A DNA stretch of 64,000 bases from Phycisphaerae bacterium (lineage in GTDB: Bacteria; Planctomycetota; Phycisphaerae; Phycisphaerales; UBA1924): positions 21,005-85,004 of the forward strand of contig JAUHYE010000003.1 of assembly GCA_030426395.1 (NCBI GenBank), in the 5' to 3' direction. A program made the translations under genes and the position numbers. The notes under the pieces are model-generated. The model saw nothing but the letters and a program-made list of their open reading frames with translations. It made no database searches and had not been told where the DNA came from. Positions 4,977 through 39,181 of the stretch are shown piece by piece (the stretch's first letter is position 1; each line of letters begins with the position of its first letter).

Positions 4977-7366
4977 TGCGTTGGCCCTGGCAGAAGTCCA
5001 AGAGCAGCGGCCGGCGCGTGAGCCTGCGGCGGGAGCGGCAGACGCCCTGGGAGAAGTTCCAGCGGCTGATCACCAACCCCAAGACGGGGTACGCGGTGGT
5101 CATCAGCACCGGGGCGGCGTTGCTGCTGAGCGTGATCACGTGGTGGGCGAGTTCGCAGCCCATGCTGGCGATGGGTCGGTTGGCCGACGAGACGGTGGTG
5201 GCCCGCGAGCCCTTTCGCATGCCCGACCCGGCGCGCACCGACGAGAAGCGCACGTTGGCGCGCGATCGGGCGGCCCGCATCTTCGTGATGCGGCCCGAGC
5301 TGAGAGGGCTGGTCGATGGGCTTGCGGGTTTGCCGCTCACGCTACGTGACGCCGAGACGCTCGAGCAGGTGGCGCCCGAGCTTCGCGCGCGGTTCGATCT
5401 CGATGAGGAAGAGCTGGCCGCCATCCGCGGGCTGGTGACCGAGGAAGAGGTCGAGCCGCGGTGGACCGAGGCCATGACGCGGTTGCGCAACGCGCTGGTG
5501 CGGCGGCCGTTTGTCGATCTTGCCACATGGCAGACCGAGCGGCAGCGTTCGGCCCAGCTTGGCGGCAGCGAGGCGGGCGAGACGGCGGTCATCTGGCTGC
5601 ACGACAGCGAGACGAGCACGCAGCCCATCCACACCAACGCCACCACCCTTGTGAATGTCGCCAGCCCCGAGCAGCGGCGCGAGGCTGCCGAACTCATCGC
5701 CGGGCAATCGCAGCTCAGCGAACCCGCGTTGCGGTCGCTCATTGTCGGGCGGCTGGTGAACCAGACCGAGCCGACGTACCGGCTCGACGAAGCGGAGACC
5801 GCCGCCCGGCAGGCCGAGGTGGTCGAGGGCATCGAGGAGTCTTGGGTCGAGGTGCAGGCGGGGCAGGTGATCGTGCGGCGAGGCGAGCCGGTTGGGCTCG
5901 AGACCATCGGCCTGTTGCGCAGCGAGCGGGATGCCGTGGCGGAGGCGCGGGGCGTGTTCTCGCTCGGGTCGCGACTGGTCGGTTCCGTCGCGGTGTGCGT
6001 GCTGGTGGTGCTGGGGCTCACGCTGTATCTGGCGTGGTACTGCCCCCGCGTGACGCGCAACCCCGAGCGCATGCTGGGCATCGCCGGGCTGTTCGTGGCG
6101 TGCTTCGCGCTTGCGGTATGGCCGGCGGCGCTGGAGCCGCGACTGGTCATGCTGCTGGCGGTGGCGCCGACGCTGCTGCTGTCGATGCTGCTGGTGATCG
6201 CCTACGACGCGCGCATCGCGCTGGCAATCTCTGCCGGGCACGCGGTGCTGGTGACGGTCGCGCTGGGCAGGCCATCGTGGTTCGTGATGATCCCGCTGGC
6301 CGGGGCGGCGACCGCGGCGTGGCAGCTCAGCGACATTCGGGATCGGCGGGCGTTCGTGCGCACCGGACTGGCAACCGCGCTCGCGCTGGCGGCGGCGACG
6401 CTGGGCGGTGGGCTGCTCGGCCGGCCGCTGTCGGCTCAGGGCTTGCTCGAATTGTCATGGGACATGGGCTTTGCCGCCAGTGGTGGGCTGGCGATGGCGG
6501 GGCTGGTGCTGTTCATCCTGCCCAGCGTCGAGAAGGCGTTCGACATCACCACGGGCATGAAGCTCATCGAGCTGCGCGACCCCAAGCACCCGCTGCTGCG
6601 CGAGCTGCAACGCCGGGCGCCGGGCACGTACAACCACTCGATGAACGTCGCGTCGATCGCCGAGGCGGCGGCGGACGCGATCGGGGCGGACTCGTTGCAG
6701 ACGTACGTGGGCGCGTTGTACCACGACGTGGGCAAGATGAACAAGCCCGAGTACTTCGTGGAGAACCAGGCAGGCGGGCCCAACAAGCACGACAAGCTGA
6801 GCCCGGCGATGAGCCTGCTGGTGATCGTGGGTCACGTGAAGGACGGCCTGGAGCTGGCGCGCGAGTTCGGCCTGCCGCGCACGCTGCACCACTACATCGA
6901 GGCGCACCACGGCACGACCCTGGTGGAATACTTCTACCACCGTGCGAAGCAGAAGGCCGCCGACGAGGCCGAGGCCGCGCGCGAGAGCCGGGCGGTGAGC
7001 AAGGGCGCCTCGGGCGAGGCGGCCGAGGTGAGCAAACGCGAGGCCAAGGAGGGCGAATTGGTCAGCGAGCCGAGCGAGATGGAGTATCGCTACCCGGGCC
7101 CGAACCCGCGGACGAAGGAGTGCGCCATCCTCATGCTGGCCGACGCCGTCGAGAGCGCCACGCGCACGATGGCCGACCCGACGCCGGCCCGCATCGACCA
7201 GCTCGTGCGTCGCCTGGCCCAGAAGCGGCTGACCGACGGCCAGTTCGACGACTGCGATCTGACGCTCAAGGAGTTGGACGCGGTGGGGGATTCGATCTCC
7301 AAGACGGTGGCGAGCATTTACCACGGGCGGATTGCGTATCCGGGGGGTGGGGAGAAGCGGGCTTAG
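4976..7366 (+). CDS. 7TM-HD membrane phosphohydrolase (PgpH-type)
   Basis: A 796-residue membrane protein of the 7TMR-HD family, whose studied members (Listeria PgpH) degrade cyclic di-AMP. After one N-terminal TM segment comes an extracellular domain of about 270 residues, then a block of TM helices (from SRLVGSVAVCVLVVLG to GLAMAGLVLFILPS), then a cytoplasmic HD domain: YNHSMNVASIAEAAADAIG, GALYHDVGKM, HHYIEAHHGTT and YPGPNPRTKE. A charged Ala/Glu/Lys insert of about 50 residues sits between HHGTT and YPGPNP. ATG 4976 overlaps the phoH stop as TGATG; GTG 4973 is an alternative. The cyclic di-AMP substrate is known for the family, not shown here. Confidence 0.9.
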   Translation: MRWPWQKSKSSGRRVSLRRERQTPWEKFQRLITNPKTGYAVVISTGAALLLSVITWWASSQPMLAMGRLADETVVAREPFRMPDPARTDEKRTLARDRAARIFVMRPELRGLVDGLAGLPLTLRDAETLEQVAPELRARFDLDEEELAAIRGLVTEEEVEPRWTEAMTRLRNALVRRPFVDLATWQTERQRSAQLGGSEAGETAVIWLHDSETSTQPIHTNATTLVNVASPEQRREAAELIAGQSQLSEPALRSLIVGRLVNQTEPTYRLDEAETAARQAEVVEGIEESWVEVQAGQVIVRRGEPVGLETIGLLRSERDAVAEARGVFSLGSRLVGSVAVCVLVVLGLTLYLAWYCPRVTRNPERMLGIAGLFVACFALAVWPAALEPRLVMLLAVAPTLLLSMLLVIAYDARIALAISAGHAVLVTVALGRPSWFVMIPLAGAATAAWQLSDIRDRRAFVRTGLATALALAAATLGGGLLGRPLSAQGLLELSWDMGFAASGGLAMAGLVLFILPSVEKAFDITTGMKLIELRDPKHPLLRELQRRAPGTYNHSMNVASIAEAAADAIGADSLQTYVGALYHDVGKMNKPEYFVENQAGGPNKHDKLSPAMSLLVIVGHVKDGLELAREFGLPRTLHHYIEAHHGTTLVEYFYHRAKQKAADEAEAARESRAVSKGASGEAAEVSKREAKEGELVSEPSEMEYRYPGPNPRTKECAILMLADAVESATRTMADPTPARIDQLVRRLAQKRLTDGQFDDCDLTLKELDAVGDSISKTVASIYHGRIAYPGGGEKRA

Positions 7367-10318: not shown

Positions 10319-11056
10319 ATGGCCAACATCCTCGTCGTCGGACCGCATCCTGATGATCAAGAGCTCGGCATGGGCGGCGCGATCGCCAAGCTGGCCGAGC
10401 AGGGGCACGACGTGCTGCTGGTCGACGTGACCAACGGCGAGCCAACGCCGTATGGCGATCCAGTGACGCGTGCCGCCGAGGCGAAGAAGGCGGCGGAGAT
10501 CCTGTCGCCCGACCCGGCGAAGTTTCCCGATGCCAAGCCGGTGCAGCGTGTGCTGCTAGGCATGCCCAATCGGTTCGTCGAGCACACCATCGCCGCGAGG
10601 CACGTGATGGCGGGCGTGATCCGGGCCCACCAGGCGAGCATCGTGTTCACGCCTTTCTTCGAGGATGCGCACCCCGACCATCGTGCCGTCACGCGGATCG
10701 TCGAGGACGCGCGATTCGACGCCAAGCTGACGGGCATCGACATGCCGGCGCCCGAGGGGATGGCGGCGGGCGAGCCGATCTATCCCAAGTGGCTGTTCTA
10801 CTACTACGCCACGCACCTGCGCTGGGTGGCCAACCCGAGCTTCATTCTCGACGTGACGGGGTACGTGGAGCGCAAGATCGAGTCGATCCGAGCGTACCAC
10901 ACGCAGTTCGTGCTGCCCGAGAAGAACCGCAAGGTGATCGACTGGGTCGAGGCGAGCGGGACGTATCTGGGCAGCCGGATCGGGGTTGGGGCGGGGGAAG
11001 GGTTTTTTACGAAGGAGCCGGTGGGGCTGGACGGGATCGAGAGTCTTGTGGGCTAG
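10319..11056 (+). CDS. PIG-L/LmbE-family deacetylase
   Basis: A 245-residue zinc-dependent N-deacetylase of the PIG-L family. The metal site is visible: VVGPHPDDQELGMGGAI (His-Pro-Asp-Asp near the N-terminus) and FEDAHPDHRA (second His). Family members deacetylate N-acetylglucosaminyl compounds; one branch, BshB, works in bacillithiol synthesis, but the substrate cannot be decided from sequence alone. The true start is ATG 10319; the track ORF from 9725 reads through the promoter and the opposite-strand gene. The end overlaps the following minus-strand gene by 4 bases. Confidence 0.87.
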   Translation: MANILVVGPHPDDQELGMGGAIAKLAEQGHDVLLVDVTNGEPTPYGDPVTRAAEAKKAAEILSPDPAKFPDAKPVQRVLLGMPNRFVEHTIAARHVMAGVIRAHQASIVFTPFFEDAHPDHRAVTRIVEDARFDAKLTGIDMPAPEGMAAGEPIYPKWLFYYYATHLRWVANPSFILDVTGYVERKIESIRAYHTQFVLPEKNRKVIDWVEASGTYLGSRIGVGAGEGFFTKEPVGLDGIESLVG

Positions 11057-11358
11057 AGGTAGTCATCCGCATTGATCGTCTTCGGCCCCTCACTCCCGGC
11101 CGTGCGTTCGTAGTAGCCGTCGCCCTTCTTCTCGAACTTCGTGAAGCCGAGTTCGCCCAGGCGCTTGTTGCTCATCTGGGTCTTGTTGAGGTCGCTCCAC
11201 TTGCCGGCGATGGCGGGCGCGGAGATCGCGCGGCGGCAGGGCTGGCCGGTCTCGGGGTGCTCGGTCAGCGGCTCGTCGGCCATGCGCTGGACGTACTCGA
11301 AGGTCTTGCCGGTGGGCTCGCCCTTCTTGTCCAGGAGTTCATAGTCATAGGTGGGCAT
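11053..11358 (-). CDS. FmdB-like small protein with a degenerate zinc ribbon
   Basis: A 101-residue protein. The opening MPTYDYELLDKKGEPTGKTF and EPLTEHPETGQPCRRAIS follow the FmdB/CxxC-ribbon pattern (MPtYeYxCxxCG...CPxCG). Here only one cysteine, in GQPCRR, remains of the expected four, so zinc binding is unlikely. The C-terminal half (KRLGELGFTKFEKKGDGYYE) also resembles longer FmdB-type proteins. Function unknown. It ends with a 4-base overlap with the PIG-L gene. Confidence 0.72.
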   Translation of the reverse strand: MPTYDYELLDKKGEPTGKTFEYVQRMADEPLTEHPETGQPCRRAISAPAIAGKWSDLNKTQMSNKRLGELGFTKFEKKGDGYYERTAGSEGPKTINADDYL

Positions 11359-11366
11359 TGTCTATT

Positions 11367-12872
11367 TTACGCCGGAAGGTCGCCCGCCGTTCGGCTGAGC
11401 GCGCCTGACAGAATAAACGCCAATTCCAGGGCCTGGGCGTAGTTCAGGCGCGGGTCGCAGGCGGTGGCGTAGTTCTCGGACAGTCGCTCCTGCGTCACGC
11501 CCGAGGCACCGCCGATGACCTCGGTCACGTCGTGCCCGGTGACCTCGACATGCACGCCGCCGAGCACGGTGCCGGCCTGGGCGTGGGCGGCCATCGTGCT
11601 GCGCAGCTCGGCCACGATCGCGTCAAAGCTGCGCGTCTTGCGGCCGTCGTCGGTCACGTGGCCGTTGCCGTGCATGGGGTCGCACAGCCAGACGGCCGGC
11701 TCCCCCGACTTCTCGACGGCTCGCAAGATCGGCGGCAGCGCGTCGACCTTCGTCGCGCCCATGCGCGAGATCAGCACGATCTTGCCCGGCTCGCGCTTGT
11801 GGTTGAGTGTGCGCAGCAGGGCGACGGCCTCGTCGGGATCGATGCTCGGGCCGATCTTCACGCCCACGGGGTTGGCGATGCCTCGGAAGAACTCGACGTG
11901 GGCGCCGTCGAGGGCGCGGGTGCGCTCACCAATCCAGGGCAGGTGGGTGGTGAGGCAGTAGTAGCCGTCGCGGCGGGGAACCTTGCGGGTCTGGGCACTC
12001 TCGTATTCGAGATTGAGCCCCTCGTGGCTGGCGAAGAAATCGACGCGGCTGACCTCGTGCATCGAGTTTTCGCCGATGAGCTCGGCGAAGCGGATGGCGC
12101 TGCGCACCTCCTGGCTCATGCGCTGGTAGCGCTCGCGCAGGTCGCCAGAGAGCTGGGCGTTGGTCAGGAACCGCAGATCCCACTGCTCGGCGTGGTGCAG
12201 GTCGGCGAAGCCGCCGGTCGCCAGCGAGCGGATGAAGTTGAGCGTCATGGCCGCGTGGTGGTAGCCGGCCAGGAGCAACTCCGGGTCGGGCCGGCGGGCG
12301 CCCGGGGTAAAGTCGGCCTTGTTGACCAGGTCGCCGAAGTAGCTGGGAAGCTCGCAGGCCTGGCCGTCGATGTCGCCGGTCTCGGTCGGCTTGGAGCGGG
12401 GCTTGGCGTACTGGCCGGCCAGGCGGCCGATGCGGACCACGGGCTTCTGCGAGCCGTGGATGAGTACGAGGCTCATCTGGAGGAGGATCTTGAGTGTCGC
12501 GGTGATGGTGGCCGGGCTGCACTCGTCGAGGGTTTCGGCGCAGTCGCCCCCATGGATGATCAGGCGCTTGCCGGCCTGGGCGTCGGCGAGGTTGGCCTTG
12601 AGGCTCTCGATCTCCCACGAGGTGACCAGCGGCGGCAGGCCGGCCAGGCGATCGACCGCGCGCTTGAGGGCGGCAGGGTCGTCATATTGAACGGTTTGAG
12701 CGCGCGGGCGCTGCTGCCAACTCGTGGGCGTCCAGGGCGATCGGGCGGTGGATTGGGCAGTAGATTGGGGCACTGGCGGCTTTCTTCGCGCGGTTTTTGC
12801 GCGTTTGGGGCAGATTTTCTTTTTTTTCGTCGGATTCGCTGAATGACATGCGGTGAAGGGTCGATGCACCAT
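11367..12872 (-). CDS. Class II 3-deoxy-7-phosphoheptulonate (DAHP) synthase
   Basis: First enzyme of the shikimate pathway: condenses phosphoenolpyruvate and erythrose 4-phosphate. About 501 residues. Class II hallmarks: PWTPTSWQQRPRAQTVQYDD, LPPLVTSWEIESLKANLA, the metal-binding Cys in IIHGGDCAETLDEC, RIGRLAGQYAKPRS, GVKIGPSIDPDEA, LISRMGATKVDALPPI, CDPMHGNGH and GVHVEVTGHDVTEVIGG. Homology begins about 60 residues in; before it is a Lys/Arg-rich tail (PTKKKKICPKRAKTARRK) whose start is uncertain. I use ATG 12872; the track start 12977 and a GTG at 12773 are alternatives, none with a clear ribosome site. No other aro genes are near. Confidence 0.92.
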   Translation of the reverse strand: MVHRPFTACHSANPTKKKKICPKRAKTARRKPPVPQSTAQSTARSPWTPTSWQQRPRAQTVQYDDPAALKRAVDRLAGLPPLVTSWEIESLKANLADAQAGKRLIIHGGDCAETLDECSPATITATLKILLQMSLVLIHGSQKPVVRIGRLAGQYAKPRSKPTETGDIDGQACELPSYFGDLVNKADFTPGARRPDPELLLAGYHHAAMTLNFIRSLATGGFADLHHAEQWDLRFLTNAQLSGDLRERYQRMSQEVRSAIRFAELIGENSMHEVSRVDFFASHEGLNLEYESAQTRKVPRRDGYYCLTTHLPWIGERTRALDGAHVEFFRGIANPVGVKIGPSIDPDEAVALLRTLNHKREPGKIVLISRMGATKVDALPPILRAVEKSGEPAVWLCDPMHGNGHVTDDGRKTRSFDAIVAELRSTMAAHAQAGTVLGGVHVEVTGHDVTEVIGGASGVTQERLSENYATACDPRLNYAQALELAFILSGALSRTAGDLPA

Positions 12873-36257: not shown

Positions 36258-36965
36258 ATGCGTTCTGTGATTGCAATGACTGCCGCGCTGGCCCTCGCCG
36301 GCGCCGCCGCCGCCGATTCGGTCGACCTGCAGTACACCGGCCCGGGCAACGGCCACTCGATCTCCGTCGTGGCCAACGGCACCTCCACCAGCGTGTTCGC
36401 CGGCCAGCTGACCTTCGCGGTCGTCAACGGCTCGGGCTCTACCGGCGTGCTGCTCAACGGCTCGCTGATGACCTACTGCATCGACGTGCTCGAGGGCGTC
36501 GGCCCCGGCCTGAACACCTACGACCTGGCCGCCCTGGAGGACGCCCCGGTCACCGCTGGCGGCATCGCCCCCGCCATGGGTGCCGAGAAGGCCGCCGCTA
36601 TCGCCCGCCTCTACACTGCTGCGGGCGGCGACCAGTTCGGCACCGACAACGACTTCGCGGCCGCCTTCCAGCTGGCCGTGTGGGAAGTGATCGCCGACTT
36701 CGGCACCACGGGCGCCACCCTGGACATCGCCGATGGCAACTTCGAGGTGACCGGCAGCCTCAACGCCGGCACCCAGTCGGTACTCGGTGGCCTGCTGGCC
36801 GCCGCCGCGGATGACAGCGTCGCCAAGTTCGGCGGTCTGGGCGCTCTGACGAACTCGGGCTTCCAGGACCAGCTCTACAGCGTGGTCGTGCCGCTTCCTG
36901 GTGCTGCAGGCCTCGCGGCCGTCGGCTTGGCCGGCGTGGCGTTCACCCGCCGCCGCCGCGCCTGA
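36258..36965 (+). CDS. Secreted protein with thioester-type domain and PLP sorting tail, copy 1
   Basis: A 235-residue exported protein. Signal peptide MRSVIAMTAALALAGAAAA, with AGGGAG 8 bases before ATG 36258 (the GTG at 36252 is too close to the site). The only cysteine, Cys74, is in MTYCIDVLE, and Gln138 is in AAFQLAVWEVIAD. This pairing, YCxD and FQxAxW, is the signature of internal Cys-Gln thioester domains of Gram-positive adhesins. The C-terminus VVPLPGAAGLAAVGLAGVAF followed by TRRRRA is a PEP-CTERM-like sorting signal. It is the first of three tandem paralogues. Covalent host or surface binding is inferred only. Confidence 0.8.
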   Translation: MRSVIAMTAALALAGAAAADSVDLQYTGPGNGHSISVVANGTSTSVFAGQLTFAVVNGSGSTGVLLNGSLMTYCIDVLEGVGPGLNTYDLAALEDAPVTAGGIAPAMGAEKAAAIARLYTAAGGDQFGTDNDFAAAFQLAVWEVIADFGTTGATLDIADGNFEVTGSLNAGTQSVLGGLLAAAADDSVAKFGGLGALTNSGFQDQLYSVVVPLPGAAGLAAVGLAGVAFTRRRRA

Positions 36966-36996
36966 TCTCGAAAGGCAATCCAACTCGTGAGCCATG

Positions 36997-37021
36997 CACC
37001 CCCAAACAGGGGGTGTTTTCG
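36997..37021 (+). terminator. Rho-independent terminator after thioester gene 1
   Basis: Stem CACCCCC/GGGGGTG with loop AAACA followed by TTTTCGTT, about 30 bases after the stop. Confidence 0.8.
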
Positions 37022-37454
37022 TTCCAGGTTCACAAAACATTCTCAGCTCAGTTCTTCATCTTGCGCTTAAATACACGCCGTGCGGATGCCGCAATATCAC
37101 ATCTTCACGCTCCACAAGCCCTCGCAAGCGGGGAGACAGAGTTCACTAGATTGCCAAAGCCACTCATAATGAATTATCCTTCAGTTTTTTTTCACATTTA
37201 CTTGTAACTCTCACTTGACAGGTTTCCGTACCTTGGTAGAACTAACCTGCGCGTATTCGTGACCAGTCTTCGGTGTCCACAAGTACGCTGCGTGTGATTC
37301 GAGTAGGTAGAGAAGGAACGAGTGGTCGGGGGGATCCGATCCATAAATTGAAAGCACCGATTTCCGATCGCCTGTAGCGATTCGGGAGCTTTGCAATCAT
37401 ACCGAAATCGCTCCGGGAGCGACGGGGTATCTGATTGCCACAGGAGGAATTACG
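37022..37454. other. AT-rich spacer and leader of thioester gene 2
   Basis: About 430 bases with clearly lower GC than the surroundings, including TTCAGTTTTTTTTCACATTT. It contains no convincing gene; the two track ORFs lack ribosome sites. The long leader (over 200 bases if the promoter below is used) could hold a regulatory RNA, but I recognise none. Confidence 0.4.
37215..37242 (+). promoter_or_regulatory. Candidate sigma-70 promoter for thioester gene 2
   Basis: A consensus -35 TTGACA is followed after 16 bases by TAGAAC as a partial -10. It lies about 215 bases upstream of the ATG in AT-rich DNA. Confidence 0.35.
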
Positions 37455-38159
37455 ATGAAGAAGAGCATCTGTGCGCTCGCGATTCTCGCGGGTGCGGCGT
37501 CAACGGCGCTGGCCGACAGCGTCAAGCTCGATTACAAGGGCCAGAATGGCAAAACCGTGAACGTATCCGGGCGTGGCAATGTCAATGCTGGCTACATGGA
37601 TTTCGAGGTGAAGGTCGGGGGCACCAGCACGCAGTTTACTGCCGGCGATCACATCCGCACATTCTGCATCGACCTCACCAGGACGTTGATCGATCCCGAC
37701 TTGTACGAGATCAAGAGCCTGGGTGGCGTTGTGCCGACAATTTCCATCGAAGAGCAAGCCGCGCTCGCCAACATGTTTGCCCATGCGGTCGCCAATGGGT
37801 ATGACTTCACCAATAACGAGACCGGATCCACGTTCCAGTTGGCGATCTGGGAGGTCTTGACAGACTTGGATCTGACTGCCGGTAACGGTGGCAAGGACAG
37901 CTTGGATGTCAAGGCCGACGCTTTCAAACTTGGCTCGAGCGGGTTCCAAGGCACTTCCACGATGCTGGATGACTTGTTCGAGGCGGCTATCAACGGCTCA
38001 GCGAACCCCAACATCATCTTGCACGGCCTCGACGCAGTATCCGGCGCTCAGGGCCAGGACCAGATGTACTTCACCGTCATCCCCCTGCCCACCAGCGCCG
38101 GCCTCGCCGCCGTTGGCCTCCTTGGCGTCGCCACCATCCGGCGCCGCCGCATGGCCTGA
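37455..38159 (+). CDS. Secreted protein with thioester-type domain and PLP sorting tail, copy 2
   Basis: A 234-residue paralogue of the preceding gene. Strong AGGAGG site; signal peptide MKKSICALAILAGAASTALA. The single mature cysteine, Cys71, is in RTFCIDLTR and Gln128 in STFQLAIWEVLTD. The tail is VIPLPTSAGLAAVGLLGVATI then RRRRMA. The gene is less GC-rich and less biased in codon use than copies 1 and 3, so it may be older, less expressed, or acquired separately. Confidence 0.8.
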   Translation: MKKSICALAILAGAASTALADSVKLDYKGQNGKTVNVSGRGNVNAGYMDFEVKVGGTSTQFTAGDHIRTFCIDLTRTLIDPDLYEIKSLGGVVPTISIEEQAALANMFAHAVANGYDFTNNETGSTFQLAIWEVLTDLDLTAGNGGKDSLDVKADAFKLGSSGFQGTSTMLDDLFEAAINGSANPNIILHGLDAVSGAQGQDQMYFTVIPLPTSAGLAAVGLLGVATIRRRRMA

Positions 38160-38219
38160 ATTGCCTCGGTACGCACGAAGGCAATCAGACCAATAACTCA
38201 GTCCCTTATTCTCTCTTTC

Positions 38220-38243
38220 GGGCCGCCGCGTGGCGGCCCTTTC
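38220..38243 (+). terminator. Possible terminator after thioester gene 2
   Basis: Strong stem GGGCCGCC/GGCGGCCC with loop GCGT, followed by only a short T run (TTTCG), about 60 bases after the stop. Confidence 0.55.
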
Positions 38244-38324
38244 GATGCGCGGCTCCAGCGTTGGCCCATAACCGCCCAATCCTCATAACCCACTGTCATA
38301 ACACGCTTTAGAACTGGACATCGA

Positions 38325-38456
38325 CACGAATCCGTGTATGCTGTCCCCGGCTTGGCGCCAACGGCCGGGGGGGAGGAGAGTCTTCCTGCCGGGGACCCAG
38401 CCAACGCCGCCCAGCCCGCCCTCAACCCGGGGGCGGCTGGGCGGAGGCAAACCAAA
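38325..38456 (+). promoter_or_regulatory. Structured 5' leader of thioester gene 3
   Basis: Three successive hairpins end just before the ribosome site: ACACG/CGTGT (38325-38338); GTCCCCGG/CCGGGGAC enclosing the palindrome TTGGCGCCAA (38343-38396); and a long CCGCCCAGCC/GGCTGGGCGG stem (38407-38454). It fills much of the 317-base gap 38160-38476. It may be a riboswitch-like or mRNA-stability element; I cannot match it to a known class. Confidence 0.4.
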
Positions 38457-38476
38457 GACCAAGAGGGAGTGGGCCA

Positions 38477-39181
38477 ATGAAGGGTTCGATGATCACCGCC
38501 GCCGCAGCCGTGCTTGCCACCGCCGCGTTCGCATCCGCAGACAGTGTCACCATGAGGTTCACCGGCTCCGGGGCCGGGCGCAACGTCACGATCCGAGTCA
38601 ACGGCGACCAGCACAACGTGCATGCCGGCCAGCTCAACCACGAGGTGACTGCCCGCACGGGCCCCACAGGTCCAGCGCTCGGCGCCCTGACGACCTACTG
38701 CGTCGACGTCTCGGAATGGGTCAGTTCCAGCAACCGCCAGTACGAGGTCACCGACCTCACCGACGCCCCAGTCGGCGCCGGCAACGACGGCATGGCCCAG
38801 CACCAGGCCGACGCCATCGGCCGCCTCTACGCCTACGCCAACGGCCAGCAATTCGGCACCAGCAACAACTTCGCCGCGGCGTTCCAGATCGCCGTGTGGG
38901 AGGTCGTCAGCGACATGGACACCGAGTCCAGCAGCCTGAGCGTTGGCAGCGGCGACTTCCGAGCCTGGAACCTCAACAGCGGCACCACCAGCTACCTCAG
39001 CACGCTCCTCGGGGTCGCCACCAGCGAAGGCCTGGCGATCGACTCGAGCCTCCGCGCCCTGACCAACGACGGCTCGCAGGACCAGATGTTCCAGGTCGTC
39101 GTGCCCCTGCCCACCACGGGCGCCATGGCAGCCGCGGGCCTCCTCGGTGCGGGCTTCTTCGGCCGCCGCCGCCGGGCCTGA
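38477..39181 (+). CDS. Secreted protein with thioester-type domain and PLP sorting tail, copy 3
   Basis: A 234-residue paralogue. Signal peptide MKGSMITAAAAVLATAAFASA, with GAGGGAG upstream. The single cysteine, Cys75, is in TTYCVDVSE and Gln138 in AAFQIAVWEVVSD, with QQFGTSNNFAAAFQ before it as in copy 1 (DQFGTDNDFAAAFQ). The tail is VVPLPTTGAMAAAGLLGAGFF then GRRRRA. Conservation of the Cys, the Gln and the sorting tail across copies that differ elsewhere argues that these are the working parts. Confidence 0.8.
   Translation: MKGSMITAAAAVLATAAFASADSVTMRFTGSGAGRNVTIRVNGDQHNVHAGQLNHEVTARTGPTGPALGALTTYCVDVSEWVSSSNRQYEVTDLTDAPVGAGNDGMAQHQADAIGRLYAYANGQQFGTSNNFAAAFQIAVWEVVSDMDTESSSLSVGSGDFRAWNLNSGTTSYLSTLLGVATSEGLAIDSSLRALTNDGSQDQMFQVVVPLPTTGAMAAAGLLGAGFFGRRRRA

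Follow-up and report, generated by a model that had tools for sequence, protein, structure and literature searches.

Three tandem genes within a 64,000-nucleotide stretch of DNA from a Phycisphaerae bacterium (the window; contig JAUHYE010000003.1, positions 21,005 to 85,004) encode predicted secreted proteins, P1, P2 and P3, each with a single Cys in the mature part and a C-terminal sorting tail, and they raise the question of whether a diderm planctomycete makes proteins that attach covalently through an internal thioester and, if so, through which residues and to what. Our answer, which we hold with good confidence from sequence comparison and modelling, is that the trio are stalkless class I thioester domains (TEDs) delivered by an exosortase and probably linking covalently to a partner, most likely the cell's own matrix. 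This answer is carried by the predicted fold and a structure search, the conservation of one Cys and one Gln, the tail, the exosortases of the genome and the operon linkage of a divergent cousin.

A first-pass annotation had described three tandem paralogues with a signal peptide, one mature Cys and an end in which PLP and a hydrophobic stretch lead up to RRRR; all of these were present (Table 1), the Arg cluster as RRR(R), the signal peptides being read from the sequence. P2 and P3 share 41% and 47% identity with P1, respectively, and 37% with each other. The mature Cys (C74 in P1, C71 in P2, C75 in P3; a second Cys of P2 is located in its signal peptide) lies, as had been reported, in a [MRT]-T-[YF]-C-[IV]-D motif (MTYCID, RTFCID and TTYCVD), and is followed by the Gln of FQ[LI]A[VI]WEV after 57–64 residues (FQLAVWEV after 64 in P1, FQLAIWEV after 57 in P2 and FQIAVWEV after 62 in P3).

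PF08341, the TED family, was the best Pfam family for all three proteins, and P3 (23.3 bits) passed its gathering cut-off of 22 bits; among the 81 relatives, 51 also fit this profile with E<=0.01, the best at 2.2e-6. A direct sequence search against the TEDs of the PDB gave no match, so a structure search was needed, and AlphaFold2 models of mature P1 (pLDDT 94.6, pTM 0.91) and full-length P3 (pLDDT 90.7, pTM 0.83) were used to search PDB structures. For mature P1, for which Foldseek covered 350,542 PDB chains, ranks 1–13 were all TEDs (E 1.6e-3 to 0.12, prob 0.80–1.00), among them CpTIE (5A0G/5A0D), FNE (5DCQ) and Cpa (2XI9/2XIC/4C0Z), with a sharp drop at rank 14 (E 0.93, prob 0.02); the top PDB match of full-length P3 was BaTIE (6FWV; E 0.07, prob 0.91). 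The mature P1 model is composed of two long strands, strand D, three helices and two short strands in the order A-B-C-D-a1-a2-a3-P-Q, the topology of class I TEDs (PMC6194298), with Cys74 at the end of strand C and the class II insert absent (alpha-3 runs to residue 167 and strand P begins at 177). The proposal of TED membership, for which a structure prediction of the mature domains had been suggested as a check, thus has stronger support than when it was first made.

To collect relatives, genome contigs were scanned with an alignment built from congeneric and ordinal ones; 165 were found and 80 retained, and protein boundaries were set for 78. Together with P1, P2 and P3 these form an alignment (A4) of 81 proteins. 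Seven columns are invariant in all 81 (C75, F136, Q137, W141, E142, Q201 and P210, in P3 numbering), and elsewhere the mean column identity falls to about 25%. Four of the seven (F136, Q137, W141 and E142) had to be invariant, since the search pattern, [AT]FQ[LI][AV][VI]WE[VIL], contains them; C75 and Q201 lie outside the pattern used to gather the relatives. Among 15 proteins found by profile without the FQ pattern, Q137 and Q201 were both present in every one and the Cys in 13. It is the sole mature-domain Cys in 68 of the 81 aligned proteins, the other 13 having a second. The architecture of the trio is also found in congeneric genomes as well as in the 78 further proteins, a recurrence in sequence that is far beyond chance.

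In characterised TEDs, the bond Cys is marked by [YFL]C-Phi-zeta and the bond Gln by a weak PhiQ-zeta-PhiPhi motif on strand Q, and a third, helical motif, TQxxPhiW in alpha-2, places beside the thioester a Gln and a Trp that neither form it nor are needed for it (PMC4450167, PMC6194298); in Cpa, the TQxxPhiW Gln is not essential for the bond (PMC4450167). The Cys motif occurs in the trio as YCID (P1), FCID (P2) and YCVD (P3), and the helical motif as FQxx[VI]W, with F replacing T, in alpha-2 of the model, where Gln138 of P1 falls within the helix spanning residues 114–130 of the mature model. It was this helical Gln that the first-pass annotation had paired with the Cys, an assignment that its match to TQxxPhiW, with a Gln dispensable for the thioester, does not allow us to retain; a second invariant Gln had been overlooked, in a QDQ[ILM] motif just ahead of the PLP tail (FQDQL in P1, GQDQM in P2, SQDQM in P3). 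The latter Gln lies 9 residues ahead of the tail and 129 (P1), 130 (P2) or 126 (P3) residues beyond the Cys, the corresponding class I spacings being 129 in CpTIE (Cys138–Gln267), 152 in SfbI and 153 in PnTIE. As regards PhiQ-zeta-PhiPhi, the Gln is present in 81/81 and the weak flanking pattern is kept only in part. By these sequence comparisons, the second Gln (Q203 in P1, Q201 in P2, Q201 in P3) is the likely bond partner. The distance between Cys74 and Gln138, on which the annotation had made its idea depend, would therefore concern the wrong pair. In a control protein, pLS20 p34, the PF08341 match spans only residues 54–115 and the bond Gln (YQRLM) is located well beyond it, which shows why a reading based on the profile by itself can go astray.

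The tail is of the PEP-CTERM/exosortase type, as had been supposed: a signal peptide and the tripartite C-terminal signal can be read from the sequence of all three proteins, a profile of the tail (A7) identified 14 places in this genome, several of them on unrelated bodies, and of three exosortase-family (PF09721) genes in the genome, two score above the TIGR02602 cut-off. Several beta-proteobacterial relatives combine the TED domain with a PEP-CTERM tail above the PF07589 cut-off. Across 294 planctomycete genomes, TIGR02602 was found in 11 of the 12 with TEDs, but co-occurrence is uninformative because every sampled member of the class carries an exosortase. The third exosortase-family gene (L011, G000:C4:4604-5356) has GDFAGVRM in place of the EAC[NS]GMRM of the other two, and on this comparison its active-site Cys seems to be missing; all four congeners have counterparts with weak scores.

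A divergent TED-like cousin in the same genome (SFCLEYDE ... VQDAFW ... QSIL, a PLP tail and 131 residues from Cys to Gln) aligns with the trio family over the core from the Cys to FQxxVW (hhalign prob 92, E 5.7e-7) and is not reached by the Pfam TED profile. In one congener (G034), the cousin is the last gene of a one-strand run that encodes a UDP-sugar dehydrogenase (ugd), a glycosyltransferase, an exosortase, a DUF3485 (EpsI) protein, an unknown protein, a 1401-residue TPR protein and the TED-like protein. The window's own genome has the same gene order, interrupted by a contig end within the exosortase gene, and in three more congeners the exosortase and TED-like genes are 7–8 kb apart. 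Because of this operon linkage, TED-like proteins are tied to an exosortase/polysaccharide system. In L105, a distant Phycisphaerales metagenome-assembled genome (MAG), a TED gene and an exosortase gene lie about 4 kb apart (about 6001–6771 and 10812–11573).

In the mechanism that we propose, Sec would export P1, P2 and P3, after which an exosortase of the EpsH family would recognise the PLP/hydrophobic/RRRR tail, cut it off and transfer what remains to the cell's exopolysaccharide layer or surface. On folding, the Cys (C74/C71/C75) would attack the side chain of the invariant Gln (Q203/Q201/Q201), with release of ammonia and formation of a buried thioester, the alpha-2 motif FQxxVW supporting the Cys backbone. 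A partner that carries an amine or another nucleophile would then be captured by the thioester and so become covalently bound. We take the cell's own matrix to be the likeliest partner because the divergent cousin closes an exosortase/polysaccharide operon, and an own-matrix target seems at least as likely as host amines. An extension of this mechanism, rather unlikely in our estimation, is that exosortase-borne TEDs are two-ended covalent cross-linkers of diderm matrices. Exosortase would attach a polysaccharide or lipid carrier at the C-terminus and the thioester would bind an amine at the other end, welding the slime layer chemically; the proposed thioester Gln is only 9 residues from the processing motif.

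Several observations weigh against the assignment of the trio to exosortase-delivered TEDs. P1 (17.0 bits) and P2 (13.1 bits) score under the PF08341 cut-off, so that the profile check put forward by the annotation held for P3 and not for its two paralogues. The Foldseek E-values are weak in absolute terms and the TM-scores are modest (best 0.51, to CpTIE), and on account of the latter we describe the models as having the same TED fold with drift. When profiles were compared with those of class II TEDs of Gram-positive bacteria, taken from Bacillus-type plasmids, the alignment covered 12 columns around the Cys only and the similarity was not significant. The PF07589 scores of P1, P2 and P3 (14.1, 9.6 and 16.4 bits) are all under the cut-off of 20.7, the NCBIfam tail models likewise score all three below cut-off, and no exosortase gene adjoins the trio. 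Finally, two relatives, L019 (G139) and L031 (G251), have no Cys and have kept both Gln, so they do not discriminate between the two Gln; judged by these sequences, the TED fold can persist without the bond. Both retain an FQxxVW-type motif and the QD Gln, and they are possibly unreactive forms.

Among the alternatives, the one that survives best is that the trio are functional TEDs acting as adhesins, which would bond the cell to surfaces other than its own matrix, such as algae, particles or other cells; we consider this possible though on the unlikely side. Where the target of a Gram-positive TED has been proven it is foreign, as is fibrinogen for SfbI (PMC6194298), and the pLS20 TED protein acts in mating (PMC8092201), but the trio have no stalk, the domain ending about 9 residues ahead of the tail and so having little reach, the cousin is located in an exosortase/polysaccharide operon, and the several tandem copies per genome suit a matrix component. 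The missing stalk and the cousin's linkage make a matrix role somewhat likelier than long-range adhesion, on what we see as a nearly balanced question. A TED fold without a thioester, in which the lone Cys would be a free thiol or form an intermolecular disulfide in non-covalent matrix proteins, would accommodate the two Cys-less relatives, which retain the rest of the fold, and the second mature Cys in 13/81, but a disulfide needs no invariant Gln, C75 and Q201 persist in 81/81 amid the general divergence, and the trio share their fold with proteins whose Cys–Gln bonds are proven; we regard this alternative as improbable. A role of the tail as a simple anchor in the inner membrane, with no involvement of an exosortase, would fit the sub-threshold PF07589 and NCBIfam scores, but has little probability given the identical tail type on unrelated bodies, the two exosortases above cut-off and the beta-proteobacterial proteins of the same architecture with PEP-CTERM above cut-off. 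A thioester between the Cys and the FQ[LI]A[VI]WE Gln (C74–Q138 in P1), reacting with host amines, is scarcely credible, for although that Gln is likewise invariant, 57–64 residues past the Cys, the search pattern made it obligatory in the 78 fetched relatives, it belongs to the alpha-2 motif whose Gln is not essential in Cpa (PMC4450167), and a better-placed invariant Gln is present.

Table 1. Features of the P1–P3 locus, in positions of the window.
Feature	Position	Strand	Remark
P1 gene	36258..36962	+	235 aa; predicted secreted TED protein
P1 layout			signal peptide ~1-19 (read from sequence), TED ~20-208, tail 212-235
P1 Cys74, proposed thioester Cys	36477..36479	+	strand C, Y-C-I-D; 81/81
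P1 Gln138, Gln of the first-pass annotation	36669..36671	+	TQxxPhiW-type alpha-2 motif, not bond partner
P1 Gln203, proposed thioester Gln	36864..36866	+	F-Q-D-Q-L beside last strand; 81/81; spacing 129
P1 tail, PLP + hydrophobic + RRRR	36891..36962	+	tail profile A7; PF07589 sub-threshold
Hairpin, terminator-like, 3' of P1	36996..37016	+	pattern scan only
P2 gene	37455..38156	+	234 aa; predicted secreted TED protein, divergent
P2 Cys71, proposed thioester Cys	37665..37667	+	motif, conservation
P2 Gln201, proposed thioester Gln	38055..38057	+	conservation, spacing
P2 sorting tail	38082..38156	+	tail profile A7; PF07589 sub-threshold
P3 gene	38477..39178	+	234 aa; predicted secreted TED protein
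P3 Cys75, proposed thioester Cys	38699..38701	+	conservation, model
P3 Gln201, proposed thioester Gln	39077..39079	+	conservation, spacing, model
P3 sorting tail	39104..39178	+	tail profile A7; PF07589 sub-threshold; terminal helix 214-233 in model
Hairpin, terminator-like, 3' of P3	39267..39288	+	pattern scan only

A Shine-Dalgarno-like sequence precedes each of the three genes, and the hairpins of Table 1, together with promoter-like sites ahead of P2 (37142-37180) and P3 (38315-38342), all from pattern scans, suggest that they are separate transcription units. Matches to a promoter motif of the sigma-54 type, known from PEP-CTERM genes of proteobacteria, numbered 36 against 27.5 expected, which is not clearly above chance. 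Unrelated genes flank the trio: DNA polymerase III alpha to one side, and to the other a class IV aminotransferase, a trypsin-like protease and a SpoIIE-type phosphatase. The G+C content of P2 (0.598) is lower than that of P1 (0.709) and P3 (0.691), and the region upstream of P2 is long and A+T-rich.

Relatives were found in Phycisphaerae, Gemmataceae and Planctomycetales and in isolates of Burkholderiales/Neisseriales, the beta-proteobacterial isolate genomes including Paucibacter and Crenobacter; plasmid and viral collections contained no relatives of the trio. Four congeneric genomes have single, adjacent orthologues of P1 and P3, and in the tree P2 falls with its orthologue, the central member of three such genes in another Phycisphaeraceae MAG, for which reasons the trio is probably old, with P2 lost elsewhere. 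Tandem TED genes, two to four in number, occur at 10 of the 81 loci examined (the window counted), with four each at L096 and L117. Two contigs titled Leptolyngbya and Cyanobacteria (L053, L086) carry TEDs that nest among Phycisphaerales in the tree, and are probably mislabelled or misbinned planctomycete DNA.

Descriptions of internal-thioester domains have so far concerned surface proteins of Gram-positive bacteria, and the function of most PEP-CTERM proteins was left open by Haft in 2006 (PMC1569441). The open-access literature searched (5.39 million articles), outside which most subscription papers and preprints fall, contained no report of thioester domains in planctomycetes or on PEP-CTERM proteins, and the five open-access papers joining 'thioester' and 'PEP-CTERM' concern other subjects by their titles and abstracts. 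If the thioester works, part of the exosortase substrate set would gain a specific chemistry (a -17 Da shift and amine capture, dependent on one Cys and one Gln) and the TED family would span at least two diderm phyla, beta-proteobacterial isolates among them.

Compared with class I TEDs (CpTIE-TED 5A0G, SfbI, FNE 5DCQ, Cpa 2XI9/4C0Z), the trio have the same fold order, the [YFL]C-Phi-zeta motif, a TQxxPhiW-type helix motif and a distant C-terminal Gln at a spacing of 126–130 against 129 in CpTIE, but differ in their long strands A and B, an alpha-0 that is at most a short turn, F for T in TQxxPhiW, an exosortase-type tail and a diderm host. Known TEDs are Gram-positive and form the tip of a long stalk that contains isopeptide or ester domains and is anchored by sortase, whereas in the trio the TED is the whole mature protein; they are therefore not TIE proteins, which combine a TED with an isopeptide/ester stalk and an LPXTG anchor, the TED here being the only domain and the tail of the PLP/hydrophobic/RRRR kind. 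The class II TEDs (BaTIE 6FWV, pLS20 p34) share the head fold and the Cys/Gln chemistry (predicted in the trio), but have a beta-sandwich insert of about 75 residues between alpha-3 and strand P that the trio are without. PepA (NF033554), the product of a PEP-CTERM flocculation gene beside the TPR gene prsT (PMC9850573), recalls the TED-like cousin, which also adjoins a TPR gene; similarity to the trio is weak and mainly in the C-terminal part (best 24.5 bits against a cut-off of 80), and PepA was rejected as a functional proxy and as a TED because the fetched members above cut-off have neither a mature Cys nor FQxxVW. With PEP-CTERM/exosortase substrates (TIGR02595, PF07589; PMC1569441) the trio share a signal peptide, a short Pro motif, a hydrophobic stretch and an Arg cluster, exosortases in the genome and, probably, single-gene units with long upstream regions, and differ in the motif, PLP, and its sub-threshold score. 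Known PEP-CTERM proteins are mostly without an assigned chemistry, whereas the trio carry a recognisable reactive domain, its reactivity being predicted.

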